NCBI GenBank assembly: GCA_008933525.1
Contig: WBUV01000081.1
Location: 1 to 10,127, forward strand
DNA: 10,127 nt
Direction: 5' to 3'
DNA from: Bacteroidales bacterium
GTDB lineage: Bacteria > Bacteroidota > Bacteroidia > Bacteroidales > Tenuifilaceae
Shown piece after piece: positions 1,803 through 5,759 of this stretch. Below the pieces are notes generated by a model. That model made no database searches, was not told the DNA's origin, and saw only the letters and a program-made list of their open reading frames with translations. Each line of letters begins with the position of its first letter. Within the stretch, counting starts at the first letter, position 1. A program made the position numbers and the translations under genes.

Positions 1803-1874
1803 GAAACTTACAATTTATTTATTTTTCTTGACATACAGTAAGGTTGTAAAATTTAATGTTTGACCAAAAAGAAT

Positions 1875-1882
1875 TAAATTTG
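1875..1882 (+). promoter_or_regulatory. Candidate Bacteroidota -7 promoter box of gltX
   Basis: TAAATTTG fits the Bacteroidota sigma-ABfr -7 consensus TAnnTTTG exactly and is followed by C. Initiation would fall near 1886, after the upstream ATG at 1856 and about 18 nt before the ATG at 1904, which supports 1904 as the gltX start. No well-spaced -33 TTTG is present: TTTG at 1859-1862 is too close and TTG at 1844-1846 too far. The call is therefore tentative. Confidence 0.4.
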
Positions 1883-1903
1883 CACCTCAAATTATTGAAT
1901 AAA

Positions 1904-3433
1904 ATGAATAACCGTAGAGTCAGAGTTCGTTTTGCCCCAAGTCCAACTGGGCCATTACATATTGGTGGAGTTAGAACTGCACTATTCAACTACTTTTTTG
2001 CCTGCAAACATGGTGGCGATTTTTTACTTAGAATTGAGGATACTGACTCGCAGCGTTTTGTGCCTGGCGCAGAGGAGTATATTAACGAAAGTTTACGTTG
2101 GTGCGGAATTAAGATAGATGAGGGCGTTCGCGAAGGCGGCCCACATGCACCATACCGCCAAAGCGAGCGAAAACCTATTTACAAGCAATATGCCGATAAA
2201 CTCGTGGAGAGTGGAAACGCTTATATTGCTTTCGATGCTCCCGATGTTCTGGATAAACTCCGCACCGATGCTGAGGCAAAAGGTGAAGCCTTTATATACA
2301 ACTATACAATCCGTGAAAAAATGGAAACTTCGCTTGTACTTTCGGCAAGCGAGGTTAAGCAACGTATTGAACGTGGCGACCAGTGGGTTGTACGTTTTAA
2401 AATGCCCGAAAACGAAGAGGTTGTAATGCAGGATTTAATTCGCGGCGAAGTTCGTGTAAACACATCAACACTCGACGATAAGGTTCTTTTCAAAAGCAGC
2501 GATATGCTCCCCACATACCATTTGGCAAACGTTACCGACGATTACCTTATGGAAATCTCGCACGTAATTCGTGGCGAGGAGTGGTTACCTTCATTACCTT
2601 TGCACGTACTACTTTACCGTGCATTGAACTGGGAGGATAAAATGCCCCAATTTGCACATCTTCCTTTACTGTTAAAACCAACTGGTAACGGAAAACTCAG
2701 CAAGCGCGATGGCGATAAAATGGGATTCCCCGTATTCCCACTTCTTTGGAAAACAGGCGAAAATGAAATTTCGAGGGGTTACCGCGAGGATGGTTATTTT
2801 CCCGAAGCATTCGTAAATCTTCTTGCACTTTTGGGCTGGAATTCTGGCACAGAGCAGGAATTGTTCTCAATGGATGAGCTAATCGAGCTGTTCAGCATTG
2901 AGCGTGTAAACAAATCGGGAGCCCGATTCGACCCCGAAAAGGCTAAATGGTTCAATCACCAATATTTAATCCGTAAAACCGATAAAGAGTTGGCAGAAAT
3001 GTTTTTGCCAATACTTGAGCAGTACAACTTTGATGTTCCTTTCGAAAAGTTAGTGCGCATTGTTGGTTTGGTTAAGGAACGCTTAAACTTTGTACACGAA
3101 ATTTGGGAACAAGCAAGTTTCTTCTTTGAGCGTCCATTGGAGTACGATCAACAAACCGTGGCAAAATTCTGGAAAGAGGATACTGCTGCAATTATGAATG
3201 AAGTTGCTGATGTTGTTAGTGGCATTGAGAAATGGGATGTTCAAGCCATTGAGCATTCAATAAAGGAGTTAATAACTGCCAAGGGTTACGGAATGGGCAA
3301 GGTGATGAACGCTGTAAGGCTTAGTCTTGTTGGAGCATCAAAAGGTCCAGGCGTTGCCGATATTTGCGAAGTGCTTGGCAAGGATGAAACCATTCAGCGC
3401 TTTAAGCAGGCGGTTGCAATACTTGGGAAGTAA
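1904..3433 (+). CDS. gltX: Glutamyl-tRNA synthetase (GluRS)
   Basis: Class I aminoacyl-tRNA synthetase that charges tRNA(Glu) with glutamate using ATP, in the cytoplasm. With the start at 1904 it has 509 residues, close to the length I expect for Bacteroidota GltX. The N-terminus [12 protein letters not shown] runs into the HIGH-type signature PLHIGG (about residues 17-22), and the KMSKS-type motif appears as KLSKRD (about 264-269). After it comes an insertion ([11 protein letters not shown]...[15 protein letters not shown]) that I associate with Bacteroidota GltX, followed by LLALLGWN and the helical anticodon-binding C-terminal half. The frame also offers an ATG at 1856, adding 16 residues, but homologues begin just before [10 protein letters not shown] and a promoter-like box lies between the two ATGs, so 1904 is preferred. 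No terminator follows; the cys leader promoter begins 37 nt after the stop. Confidence 0.97.
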
Positions 3434-3470
3434 TTAAACTTTTTGAAATTTATAGTGTTACTTTATTCAT

Positions 3471-3478
3471 TACATTTG
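3471..3478 (+). promoter_or_regulatory. Bacteroidota -7 promoter box of the cys leader/cysE transcript
   Basis: TACATTTG matches the TAnnTTTG consensus perfectly and sits 5 nt before the leader-peptide ATG at 3484. The expected start of transcription is about 3482-3484, so the leader peptide would be translated from an essentially leaderless RNA. A TTTG at 3442-3445 could be the -33 element, but the 25-nt spacer is longer than usual. The box lies exactly where a promoter for the attenuator must be, which raises confidence above motif matching alone. Confidence 0.55.
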
Positions 3479-3483
3479 TAACG

Positions 3484-3570
3484 ATGAAAAGAAACCATAA
3501 TATAGTTTGTTGTACCTGTTGTTGTCAAGGAAATACTTGGCCGCAAGGGGCATTGCTATGTTTAGGATAA
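3484..3570 (+). CDS. Cys-rich leader peptide of the cysE attenuator (28 aa)
   Basis: A 28-codon ORF from ATG 3484 to TAA 3568-3570. After a basic N-terminus (MKRNHN) it has Cys codons at positions 9, 10, 12, 13 and 14 (TGT TGT ACC TGT TGT TGT, 3508-3525) and one more at 26: six Cys in 28 residues, all TGT. It sits directly upstream of an intrinsic terminator and of cysE. This matches the layout of amino-acid leader peptides such as those of trp or his operons, where runs of the codon for the pathway's end product make the ribosome stall when the charged tRNA is scarce. I infer a regulatory, not structural, role for the peptide. An alternative is a small metal-binding or thiol peptide, less likely given the RNA structures downstream. 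No ribosome binding site is visible; the ATG lies almost at the predicted transcription start. Confidence 0.8.
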   Translation: MKRNHNIVCCTCCCQGNTWPQGALLCLG

Positions 3571-3615
3571 ATCTATTGAGTAGATACTAATACAATCAAA
3601 CATAACCCTTCCGGC
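3540..3615 (+). promoter_or_regulatory. Predicted antiterminator structure of the Cys attenuator
   Basis: The outer stem pairs 3540-3549 (GCCGCAAGGG, inside the leader ORF 15 nt after the last codon of the Cys run) with 3606-3615 (CCCTTCCGGC, the 5' arm of the terminator): nine Watson-Crick pairs around one C-C mismatch. A perfect 7-bp inner stem, TATGTTT (3557-3563) with AAACATA (3598-3604), stacks inside it. A small hairpin ATCTA/TAGAT (3571-3575 and 3581-3585) caps the inside. This fold and the terminator are mutually exclusive. A ribosome stalled on the Cys codons would reach only to about 3538 and leave the fold intact. One at the stop codon 3568 would cover 3557-3563 and block it. A weaker competitor, GCAA (3543-3546) with TTGC (3553-3556), may form when nothing is paired downstream. 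The base pairs are read by eye; the mechanism is inferred. Confidence 0.7.
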
Positions 3616-3632
3616 ATCCGGAAGGGTTTTTT
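3604..3632 (+). terminator. Rho-independent terminator of the cysE attenuator
   Basis: AACCCTTCCGG (3604-3614) and CCGGAAGGGTT (3618-3628) form a perfect 11-bp, GC-rich stem with a 3-nt CAT loop, and the T-run extends to 3632. It lies 33 nt downstream of the leader stop codon and 25 nt upstream of the cysE ATG. It therefore stands between promoter and structural gene, as an attenuator does, and not merely as a gltX terminator. Its 5' arm is the segment used by the alternative antiterminator. Confidence 0.93.
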
Positions 3633-3657
3633 ATTTTCAATTTAAACACTACACCGT

Positions 3658-4437
3658 ATGAACTTTTTGAAATTTAGACTTAAAAACAGATACAACATAA
3701 AGGTAGATGTCGAGGAATTTTCCCAACTTGTGCTAATGCATATTTTCCCTGAAATGCTTAACCGAAGAACGTTTAGGGTTAGTTCAAGCGAGGTCTATAA
3801 AAGGCTTAAACAACTTCTTGTAAAGCAAATGAGCGATGGCGTAAAGGCCGATTTTATTGCGAAGCAATTTATAGCAGAACTACCATTGCTGCATAAAGAA
3901 CTAATTGCCGATGCTCGCTTTATTGCTAAAAACGACCCTGCTGCAAGTGGAATTGATGAGGTGATTATTGCATATCCTGGGTTCACTGCTATCTGCACTT
4001 ATCGCTTGGCGCACTCTCTTGCAAGTAAAAATGTTCCATTGATTCCACGAATTATGACAGAGTGGGCCCATTCAACAACAGGTATCGATATTCACCCGAA
4101 AGCAACCATTGGAAAGGAGTTCTTTATAGACCACGGAACGGGCATAGTAATTGGCGAAACGGCCATTATTGGCAATAGGGTCAAAGTTTACCAAGGCGTT
4201 ACAATTGGTGCACTAAGCGTAGGCAAGGAACTGGCTCAAACAAAGCGTCACCCAACCATTGAGGATGATGTGGTAATATATGCCGGAAGTACAATTCTGG
4301 GAGGTAATACTACCATTGGGCATAATAGCATTATTGGCGGCAACGTATGGCTCACCAAAAGCGTTGAGCCAAACTCCTTGGTTTACCACGAAAGCAGAGT
4401 AATTGTTAGAGAGCGAGAGACTGTAAGTCGAGTATAG
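3658..4437 (+). CDS. cysE: Serine O-acetyltransferase
   Basis: Transfers acetyl from acetyl-CoA to L-serine, giving O-acetylserine, the acceptor for sulfide in cysteine synthesis; cytoplasmic. The 259-residue protein has a helical N-terminal region of about 80 residues. The SAT hallmark follows (DARFIAKNDPAA, about 85-96, then YPGFTAICTYRLAHSL), and then left-handed beta-helix hexapeptide repeats from about 143 to 235 (DIHPKATIG, GTGIVIGET, NRVKVYQGVTIG, GHNSIIGG). By comparison with the enterobacterial enzyme, D144 and H159 (in IDHGTG) are the expected catalytic pair, and R197-H198 in KRHP bind substrate. The C-terminal tail (about 240-259) is the region that in CysE homologues mediates feedback inhibition and CysK docking; it ends in SRV here and lacks the typical terminal Ile. 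The gene is preceded by the Cys leader attenuator and followed, after a repeat-rich gap, by cysK. Confidence 0.96.
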   Translation: MNFLKFRLKNRYNIKVDVEEFSQLVLMHIFPEMLNRRTFRVSSSEVYKRLKQLLVKQMSDGVKADFIAKQFIAELPLLHKELIADARFIAKNDPAASGIDEVIIAYPGFTAICTYRLAHSLASKNVPLIPRIMTEWAHSTTGIDIHPKATIGKEFFIDHGTGIVIGETAIIGNRVKVYQGVTIGALSVGKELAQTKRHPTIEDDVVIYAGSTILGGNTTIGHNSIIGGNVWLTKSVEPNSLVYHESRVIVRERETVSRV

Positions 4438-4453
4438 TTGATAAAGAGATGGT

Positions 4454-4543
4454 TGCCTTCGGCGAATCCTTCGGGTTTCGACAGGCTCAGCATGACAAAT
4501 TACGTTATTCTTTGTCATTTCGAGTGGTAGCGAGAAATCCATA
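4454..4543. repeat. REP-like intergenic inverted repeat
   Basis: The core is ATGACAAA (4492-4499) and TTTGTCAT (4511-4518), a perfect 8-bp inverted repeat with an 11-nt loop. It is flanked on the left by a TTTCGACAGGCTCAG segment and on the right by TTTCGAG...CGAGAAATC, itself an imperfect palindrome (4517-4538). A GCC-TTC-GGC mini-hairpin lies at 4455-4463. Such sequences (GACAGGCTCAGCATGACAAA with ATTTCGAG...GAGAAATC) are, from memory, among the commonest dispersed intergenic repeats of Bacteroidota genomes. Only one copy is in this window, so dispersal cannot be shown here. Confidence 0.55.
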
Positions 4544-4615
4544 ATAATCTTGAGCTTTGATCAAAAAACACTATTGTCCGATAAAATTTTCGTTCTTCAA
4601 TTAATTAAATATCAC

Positions 4616-4755
4616 GCTACTATGTAGCTTAATTATTCAAATTCATATGGTTTGTCTACAAATATTTCGCCGCTTCGCGGCTAATAATTAGCAGCAGCGC
4701 TGCGATCATATTTGTAGCTAATTAGAAGACAAGCAAAAGTAAGCTCCAGAGGAGC
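4616..4755. repeat. Array of four small hairpins upstream of cysK
   Basis: Four compact palindromes: GCTAC-TAT-GTAGC (4616-4628), GCCGC-TTC-GCGGC (4669-4681), GCAGCGCTGC (4694-4703) and GCTCC-AGA-GGAGC (4743-4755). The middle two are enclosed by a perfect inverted repeat, CTACAAATAT (4656-4665) and ATATTTGTAG (4708-4717). Hairpin centres are spaced about 53, 24 and 50 nt. None is followed by a T-run, so these are not intrinsic terminators. The pattern resembles REP/MITE-type intergenic repeats and the array at 5859-5983. Confidence 0.6.
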
Positions 4756-4850
4756 GAAATATTATTTTAGTATCTGAAATAATGGTTATAGAGTTTAAAA
4801 ATCATTTTAATCGAACAACATTGATTAAGAAACATAAAACAAATAAAAAT

Positions 4851-5759
4851 ATGAAAGCACAAAGTTTACTGGAGACTGTTGGTGGAACACCACATATCCG
4901 ACTCAACAAACTATTTCCTAACAGCGAAGTTTGGATTAAGGATGAACGAAGAAATCCTTCAGGAAGCATTAAGGATAGAGCAGCCTTGGCAATGATAGAG
5001 GATGCTGAAAGAAGTGGGGTCTTAAAAAGCGAAAGCGTTATTGTGGAGCCCACATCGGGCAATACGGGCATTGGCTTGGCAATGATATCGGCAATTAAGG
5101 GTTATAGGCTGATTCTAACAATGCCTGAATCGATGTCCATTGAGCGTCGACGATTACTTAGCGCTTACGGCGCAGAGCTGGTTCTTACACCAAAAACCGA
5201 AGGTATGAAGGGTGCAATTGCCAAGGCCGAGGAAATTGTAGGAGCCACACCAAACTCGTGGATGCCAATGCAGTTTGCAAATAAATCGAACCCCAGCACC
5301 CATTATATCAACACTGCAAAAGAAATTGTTGCTGATTTTCCCGATGGCATTGATTATTTGGTTGTTGGCGTTGGCACTGGTGGGCATATCTCAGGTGTAG
5401 GAAGTAAGCTAAAAGAACTATTCCCTGATATAAAAATTATTGCAGTGGAACCGCTTGATTCTCCAATGATATCGGAAGGAAAGGCTGGTCCTCATCCAAT
5501 ACAGGGGATCGGTGCTGGGTTTATCCCATCGAACCTGAACAAAAGCATTATTGATGAGGTGATTAGGGTAAAAGGTGCAGATGCCTTCGAAATGGTAAGG
5601 AAGTATGCAAAAACAGAAGGATTTCTTGCCGGAATATCAACAGCGGCAAACTTGGTTGCAGTAACAGAGCTGCTTTCAACAATTGAAACGAACAAACGAA
5701 TACTAACATTTGCTTACGATTCTGCAGAGCGATATTTAAGCGTTGAGGGTTTGCTTTAG
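4851..5759 (+). CDS. cysK: Cysteine synthase (O-acetylserine sulfhydrylase), PLP-dependent
   Basis: Replaces the acetyl group of O-acetylserine with sulfide to give L-cysteine and acetate, the step after CysE; cytoplasmic. From the ATG at 4851 it has 302 residues and begins MKAQSLLETVGGTPHIRLN, aligning with the usual IGNTP...RLN start. The PLP lysine is K41 in NPSGSIKDR, and the substrate loop is TSGNTG (68-73). PESMSIERRRLLSAYGAE (92-109) is CysK-typical. The phosphate-binding loop is GVGTGGHISG (173-182), followed by GIGAGFIP (219-226), and S291 in DSAERYLS is in the place of the serine contacting the PLP ring nitrogen. An in-frame ATG at 4782 would add 23 atypical residues and is rejected. 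Some CysM-like enzymes share these motifs, so the CysK/CysM choice is by overall resemblance. Regulation may depend on the upstream cysE attenuator if the genes are co-transcribed. Confidence 0.94.
   Translation: MKAQSLLETVGGTPHIRLNKLFPNSEVWIKDERRNPSGSIKDRAALAMIEDAERSGVLKSESVIVEPTSGNTGIGLAMISAIKGYRLILTMPESMSIERRRLLSAYGAELVLTPKTEGMKGAIAKAEEIVGATPNSWMPMQFANKSNPSTHYINTAKEIVADFPDGIDYLVVGVGTGGHISGVGSKLKELFPDIKIIAVEPLDSPMISEGKAGPHPIQGIGAGFIPSNLNKSIIDEVIRVKGADAFEMVRKYAKTEGFLAGISTAANLVAVTELLSTIETNKRILTFAYDSAERYLSVEGLL

Follow-up and report, generated by a model that had tools for sequence, protein, structure and literature searches.

Ribosome-mediated transcription attenuators of the trp/his type are a well-known kind of regulator in Proteobacteria. 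Leader-peptide attenuation is mentioned in passages of PMC1262725 and PMC2965389, and the main text of the latter contains no words beginning with Bacteroid, cysE or cysK. For cysteine, three described cases come closest. In Rhodobacterales, the uORFC-8-2 motif is located before cysS, and ribosome-mediated tRNA-Cys attenuation with a terminator is predicted for it (PMC8632094). In Actinobacteria, Cys leaders without conserved terminators were predicted (passages of PMC1262725), and leaderless polycysteine ORFs of M. smegmatis are reported to act on translation (Canestrari et al. 2020, as described in PMC9031893 and PMC13236596). Within Bacteroidota, hints of leader-peptide attenuation ahead of amino-acid operons have been described in Flavobacterium psychrophilum (passage of PMC9723704). 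Among open-licence PMC papers, the passages retrieved contained no Cys attenuator before cysE in Bacteroidota. This is compatible with the view of a preliminary description of the present locus that such elements are little described in the phylum, the F. psychrophilum suggestion being on record.

Comparison of the locus with described attenuators

We analyzed a 10,127-nucleotide stretch of DNA from a member of the Bacteroidales (family Tenuifilaceae), hereafter called the window. Judged from its sequence, the region upstream of cysE is very probably a ribosome-mediated transcription attenuator that senses the charge of tRNA-Cys and controls a cysE-cysK operon. The features of the locus are as follows.

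1856-3433, + strand: gltX, directly upstream of the leader region
3471-3478, + strand: TAnnTTTG (-7) promoter box, TACATTTG, an exact match; predicted transcription start at 3483
3484-3570, + strand: leader ORF of 28 codons plus TAA, MKRNHNIVCCTCCCQGNTWPQGALLCLG, with six Cys; homologous Cys leaders precede cysE in relatives
3508-3525, + strand: control codons, five Cys among six (codons 9, 10, 12, 13 and 14)
3519-3546, + strand: segment 1:2 hairpin, in which 3519-3529 (in and beside the Cys codons) pairs with 3536-3546
3540-3549, + strand: segment 2, the 5' arm of the antiterminator, within the leader ORF
3557-3563, + strand: 5' arm of the inner stem, which pairs with 3598-3604 and brings segments 2 and 3 together
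3598-3604, + strand: 3' arm of the inner stem, seven pairs with 3557-3563
3604-3632, + strand: intrinsic terminator with an 11-bp stem, a 3-nt loop and a six-U run (two U within the stem)
3606-3615, + strand: segment 3, pairing with 3540-3549 (antiterminator) or, as 3604-3614, with 3618-3628 (terminator)
3658-4437, + strand: cysE, serine O-acetyltransferase (NCBIfam NF041874, 162 bits, cut-off 150)
4854-5759, + strand: cysK, cysteine synthase A (NCBIfam TIGR01139, 399 bits, cut-off 351)

Like the trp and his attenuators, the element has a leader ORF in which codons for the end product form a run, segments that can pair as 1:2, 2:3 and 3:4, an intrinsic terminator and a biosynthetic operon downstream. 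It differs from them in that it would sense Cys, in its occurrence in Bacteroidota, a phylum without Shine-Dalgarno initiation, in its apparently leaderless leader, and in the location of segment 2, which is part of the leader ORF and mostly ends 16-22 nt ahead of its stop codon. As described in PMC8632094, uORFC-8-2 resembles the window in its uORF with Cys codons in tandem, its stems and its U run; however, that motif carries two Cys codons, belongs to another phylum and precedes cysS, whereas the next genes in the window are cysE and cysK. The mycobacterial polycysteine ORFs have, like the window, a Cys-codon run and cysteine genes downstream, together with a leaderless start, which in the window is predicted from the box position; but they have no conserved intrinsic terminator and are reported to affect translation of the downstream gene, whereas a strong terminator is present in the window. 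The F. psychrophilum case concerns the same phylum and short peptides upstream of amino-acid operons; the passage in PMC9723704 names no amino acid or gene, while the window concerns Cys and cysE. We call the element a new family of a known kind.

Leader ORF and promoter box

The preliminary description had listed the promoter box, the 28-codon Cys ORF, the terminator, the antiterminator and the inner stem, all of which were confirmed at the coordinates given above; it had overlooked the 1:2 hairpin and the near-zero predicted 5'UTR of the leader. The leader is the sole site in the window with at least four Cys per six codons in any of the six frames, and its sixth Cys is at codon 26. Codons for the end product are clustered in the leader ORF, and this clustering recurs in relatives. 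In the leaders of the 32 loci assembled below, Cys is encoded by 120 TGT and 27 TGC codons, and since both are used, it is the meaning of the codon that is kept.

The TAnnTTTG box is found in the window at a frequency near chance (10 found vs 13 expected). In F. psychrophilum, the box lies at -12 to -5 from the transcription start (passage of PMC9723704), and the same spacing applied to the window predicts a start at 3483, one base before the AUG. Based on the position of the -7 box alone, the leader ORF of the window is thus probably leaderless, with a predicted 5'UTR of ~1 nt. Leaderless mRNAs are rare across Bacteroidota; they make up 5.5% of mRNAs in F. psychrophilum, and in B. thetaiotaomicron about 3.7% of 5'UTRs are shorter than 10 nt (PMC7366714). 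At nine of the 32 loci, the window among them, only 4-5 nt separate the box from the leader start, so that the predicted transcription start falls on the AUG or one base ahead of it (L001-L003, L010, L012, L015, L022, L115 and L121); these nine are not independent of each other, three being of one genus and three of another. In 12 of the 32 loci the box ends 16-29 nt ahead of the leader start, which is the ordinary arrangement, and in the remaining 11 an exact -7 box is absent.

Terminator and competing structures

The terminator, located between the leader and the first gene, has a folding energy of -18.3 kcal/mol vs a shuffle mean of -6.3 (z -5.0), and none of 200 shuffles was as good. Its 5' arm is shared with an antiterminator, in which 3540-3549 and 3606-3615 form nine pairs with one C.C mismatch and a duplex energy of -11.8 kcal/mol. 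The preliminary description had taken the antiterminator to be mutually exclusive with the terminator. This holds for the 3540-3549/3606-3615 helix but not for the inner stem, since the minimum-energy fold of 3526-3632 consists of the inner stem together with 10 of the 11 terminator pairs, which leaves the former helix as the only true competitor. Second helices of differing sequence are also present in several relatives. The 1:2 hairpin is less distinct. In the window alone its energy is -12.4 vs a shuffle mean of -9.4, with 10 of 100 shuffles as good, and across the 32 loci it is modestly above shuffles (mean z 1.0), occurring in many relatives.

A scan of the window with Rfam 15, T-box and riboswitches included, gave no family above its gathering cut-off, and no Rfam matches were obtained at the loci of 14 relatives. 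A riboswitch or T-box was rejected, as no known one matches. The best Rfam match was Phe_leader (26.3 bits vs a cut-off of 55, E 0.63), which we read as a shared terminator shape.

Recurrence in the family and close relatives

A cysE search of 60 related genomes gave 30 loci, 15 of which have Cys-run leaders, while a further one (L016) keeps two adjacent Cys. All 16 carry CCCTTCC in the 5' arm of the terminator; 14 are from the window's own family, and L008 and L022 are from other families. In a search of the family itself, 27 genomes were returned, 16 with a matching cysE, and leader and terminator were found in 14 of these 16, counting L016 with its two Cys. The two exceptions (G011, which is L014, and G019, which is L013) lack both the Cys leader and a strong terminator, and their cysE score lower. 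Among the 29 close-relative regions tested, 17 have a strong terminator: the 15 with a leader holding three Cys in six codons, L016, and L028, which has an AT-rich hairpin without a Cys leader. None of the 12 regions without a strong terminator has a Cys leader.

Recurrence in relatives shows that the arrangement is not due to chance. The alignment of relatives proposed in the preliminary description came out in favour of its reading, the Cys leader being missing within the family only at two loci where the terminator is missing as well. A locus that keeps the terminator and has lost the Cys codons, which it had named as speaking against an attenuator, was not seen in the family, the nearest being L016. 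The joint occurrence of Cys codons, terminator and antiterminator complementarity thus supports its proposal of a ribosome-mediated Cys attenuator, as far as sequence can indicate.

Wider recurrence in Bacteroidota

In total, 241 cysE loci were read, and 218 of their upstream regions were distinct and 300 nt or longer. The automatic test applied to these required an ORF, 8-50 codons long and holding three or more Cys in six codons, and a terminator-like hairpin within 110 nt. The test was passed by 34 of the 218 regions vs none of the 218 reverse strands, and by a mean of 0.2 in five dinucleotide-shuffled sets of 218. L021 and L044, with weak 7-bp hairpins and an ORF apparently within coding sequence, were dropped by eye, leaving 32 loci. 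Two loci that resemble members fail the three-in-six rule: L016, where only two Cys codons are adjacent, and L181, where the leader upstream of cysE carries two CC pairs (NMNYCCITLNCCGVYIS) and is followed by a GCCCTTCTC..GAAGGGC terminator. Applied to other amino acids, the same test gave 25 of 218 for Leu, 12 for Ile, 7 for Val, 6 for Ser and 0-5 for the others, against 0-0.8 in shuffles. The Leu, Ile and Val passes are taken to be mostly other frames of TGT runs, with exceptions possible case by case.

By source, the 32 loci comprise 15 of 29 regions from close relatives, 6 of 79 from named genomes (including Runella sp. and Flavobacterium suaedae), 2 of 54 from newly read members of the order, 1 of 48 from members of the phylum, and all eight loci found with the covariance model R1, a biased sample that says nothing on frequency. 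The element is present in 11 further families of the order (f9, f23, f32, f37, f58, f80, f82, f93, f97, f99 and f112) and in one class member of another order (L246). Its distribution is patchy, and most cysE regions beyond the own family are without it. R1 was built from 16 loci and is unspecific below about 50 bits. It matches 194 of 393 genomes at E 0.01, and a Cys-run leader was present in only 16 of 34 inspected loci; L124 (46 bits) has none, and at L130 the three-Cys ORF is doubtful and there is no cysteine gene. R1 was thus used only for finding candidates, and its loci were counted apart. In the own genome, R1 scores the cysE site at 91 bits and the next match at 35 bits; this search gave no second Cys attenuator of the same class, and divergent ones could escape the model.

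Co-variation of the competing segments

Pairing was measured in the 32 loci as the best ungapped match between the terminator 5' arm and the stretch from the Cys run to the terminator. Segment 2:3 pairing is above shuffles (mean z 2.8), and it is weak (p 0.11-0.36) in L010, L031, L037, L069 and L121. In loci whose arm is not CCCTTCC, matching changes are often seen in both the leader arm and the terminator 3' arm, as in L246 (CTCTGC), L172 (CCTTCAA), and L115 and L125 (CCCTTTC). The leader pairing of L167 (CCCCTGCC) contains a single mismatch, and in L065 each of the two pairings contains one. When partners were swapped among 18 representatives, pairing fell only moderately, from an own mean of 18.1 to a swapped mean of 13.6 in combinations with a divergent locus, and each of the five divergent loci has at least one foreign partner that scores equal to or above its own. 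The three segments competing for pairing thus tend to co-vary, partially, at the sequence level. The distance from the end of the leader arm to the stop codon is 16-22 nt in 20 of the 32 loci, and in four the stop codon lies before or overlaps the leader arm.

These results bear on the possibility that the Cys leader acts on the translation of cysE and not on its transcription, as in mycobacterial leaderless polycysteine ORFs. The window shares a Cys run and an apparently leaderless start with that case (excerpts of PMC9031893 and PMC13236596), and some other Bacteroidota have Cys leaders without a terminator. However, a strong terminator sits between the leader and cysE, and the complementarity of its 5' arm to the leader region exceeds chance across the 32 loci, at the mean z given above, so that control of translation alone appears very unlikely.

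Gene order and downstream genes

In the window, gltX, the leader ORF, the terminator, cysE and cysK are on the same (+) strand. The cysE product also scores 161 bits with TIGR01172, under that model's cut-off of 211. Both downstream genes make cysteine, in agreement with the amino acid that the preliminary description had proposed to be sensed. It had put the distance between cysE and cysK at 413 nt; the gap is in fact 416 nt (4438-4853), and its + strand contains no exact TAnnTTTG box. This spacing is shorter at the other attenuator loci, and the gap of the window is ~290 nt longer than in two relatives of the same genus. Small palindromes at 4616-4628 and 4691-4703 within the gap are perhaps inserted repeats. 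Of the 30 attenuator loci long enough to tell, 29 have cysK immediately after cysE and on its strand, compared with 92 of 142 of the remaining loci, and cysK may be co-transcribed with cysE.

Since gltX ends at 3433 directly upstream on the same strand, and a scan of 3400-4900 showed no other terminator-like site on the + strand before 3604, the hairpin might be the end-of-transcript terminator of gltX, with the Cys-rich ORF a coincidence. We regard this as extremely improbable, as the promoter box separates gltX from the leader, the pair of Cys leader and terminator also precedes cysE at L006, whose upstream gene is not gltX, and once precedes cysK (L129), and chance yields 0 to 0.2 such regions per 218. 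It is likewise hardly credible that a nascent Cys-rich peptide senses metal, redox state or sulfide in the ribosome and hence causes stalling: dense Cys motifs (CCTCCC, CCCC) could bind metal, and a similar leader once precedes an OsmC-like gene (L117), but the number and spacing of Cys vary (CCC, CCCC, CICCC, CCWYC), as expected of codons that are read and not of a binding site, and the downstream genes are nearly always cysteine-synthesis genes, in loci mostly chosen by cysE.

A second design and other leaders

In family f134 of the same phylum, a short ORF ending in a Cys run (for example NNCICCCN and AAICCCCC) was found at 10 of 28 cysE loci by a strict rule and at 13 of 28 by a looser one (L179, L182, L185, L192, L199, L268-L270, L272, L277, L282, L283 and L285), against none of 28 on the reverse strand with the strict rule. 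At seven of the ten loci the stop codon lies 52-57 nt from the cysE start, at two others 66 and 68 nt, and at L192 47 nt, the last counted to a TTG (59 nt to an ATG). At five of the 13 loci (L179, L182, L185, L192 and L199), covered by the test of the 218 regions, no terminator-like hairpin lies within reach of the ORF. On the 218 regions, the strict rule gave 15 forward hits and one reverse, the 15 including members of the first design as well as L021 and L044.

The f134 type resembles the mycobacterial case more than it does the window's. We tentatively suggest, at somewhat less than even chances, that several classes of Bacteroidota control cysteine synthesis by sensing tRNA-Cys charge via tiny, often leaderless leader genes, and that at least two designs arose: the terminator/antiterminator switch of the window, and a terminatorless type with the Cys run abutting the stop codon, mostly 52-57 nt before cysE and probably acting on translation or Rho.

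Leaders with terminators were also seen before other genes. At L139 (gene at 1640-2713, + strand), an Asn-rich leader (MTTLQNNLFNNNSNNNLLRIGKAIV) overlapping the match at 1501-1576 and a terminator precede asparagine synthetase A (AsnA), a possible asparagine attenuator judged by sequence. At L138 (gene at 651-1493, - strand), a leader ending in ...FDFAYYFYFYFYFGPK and a terminator precede prephenate dehydratase, possibly forming a Phe/Tyr attenuator. L134 (gene at 428-1315, - strand) has an Ile-rich leader (MYNQFIISSIIIAGVISHSGKE from an internal Met) and a terminator before a class IV aminotransferase. The Cys leader (MENMILNLHTCCCSCRTITCWGCCVFKYD) and terminator of L117 (gene at 1021-1458, - strand) precede the OsmC-like gene, and the same genome also carries a Cys attenuator before cysE (L172). 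At L129, a five-Cys leader at 1475 and a terminator are placed before cysK (1659-2570, + strand) and not before cysE.

Proposed mechanism and implications

In the attenuator that we propose, transcription would begin at ~3483 and a ribosome would load at the near-terminal AUG. When Cys-tRNA is scarce, the ribosome would wait on the Cys codons at 3508-3525, covering the 5' arm of the 1:2 hairpin and leaving segment 2 (3540-3549) free. By way of the inner stem (3557-3563/3598-3604), segment 2 could then zip onto the nascent segment 3 (3606-3615), and with the 2:3 pairing formed the polymerase would continue into cysE and cysK. With ample Cys-tRNA, the ribosome would run to the stop codon at 3568 and cover the arm of the inner stem. 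Segment 2, which the ribosome has passed, could pair again with segment 1, segment 3 would pair with segment 4, and transcription would stop at the U run.

At -18 kcal/mol the terminator exceeds the antiterminator (about -12) in stability, which means that control must be kinetic. A kinetic choice fits the inner stem and the common distance of 16-22 nt from segment 2 to the stop codon, a distance that would place a terminating ribosome on the inner-stem arm, as follows from general knowledge of the ribosome footprint.

The element, an RNA that matches no Rfam family, would bring leader-peptide attenuation, complete with its terminator/antiterminator switch, into a phylum whose translation starts without Shine-Dalgarno pairing. 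If the leader is leaderless, as it appears to be, a testable question is how ribosome loading keeps pace with the polymerase when the AUG is the first codon of the transcript. On the reading of the sequence given here, a shortage of cysteine at the ribosome is probably what switches on its synthesis in these Bacteroidota, and the attenuator offers a concrete candidate, open to experiment, for the regulator of the first committed step of this pathway in the phylum.
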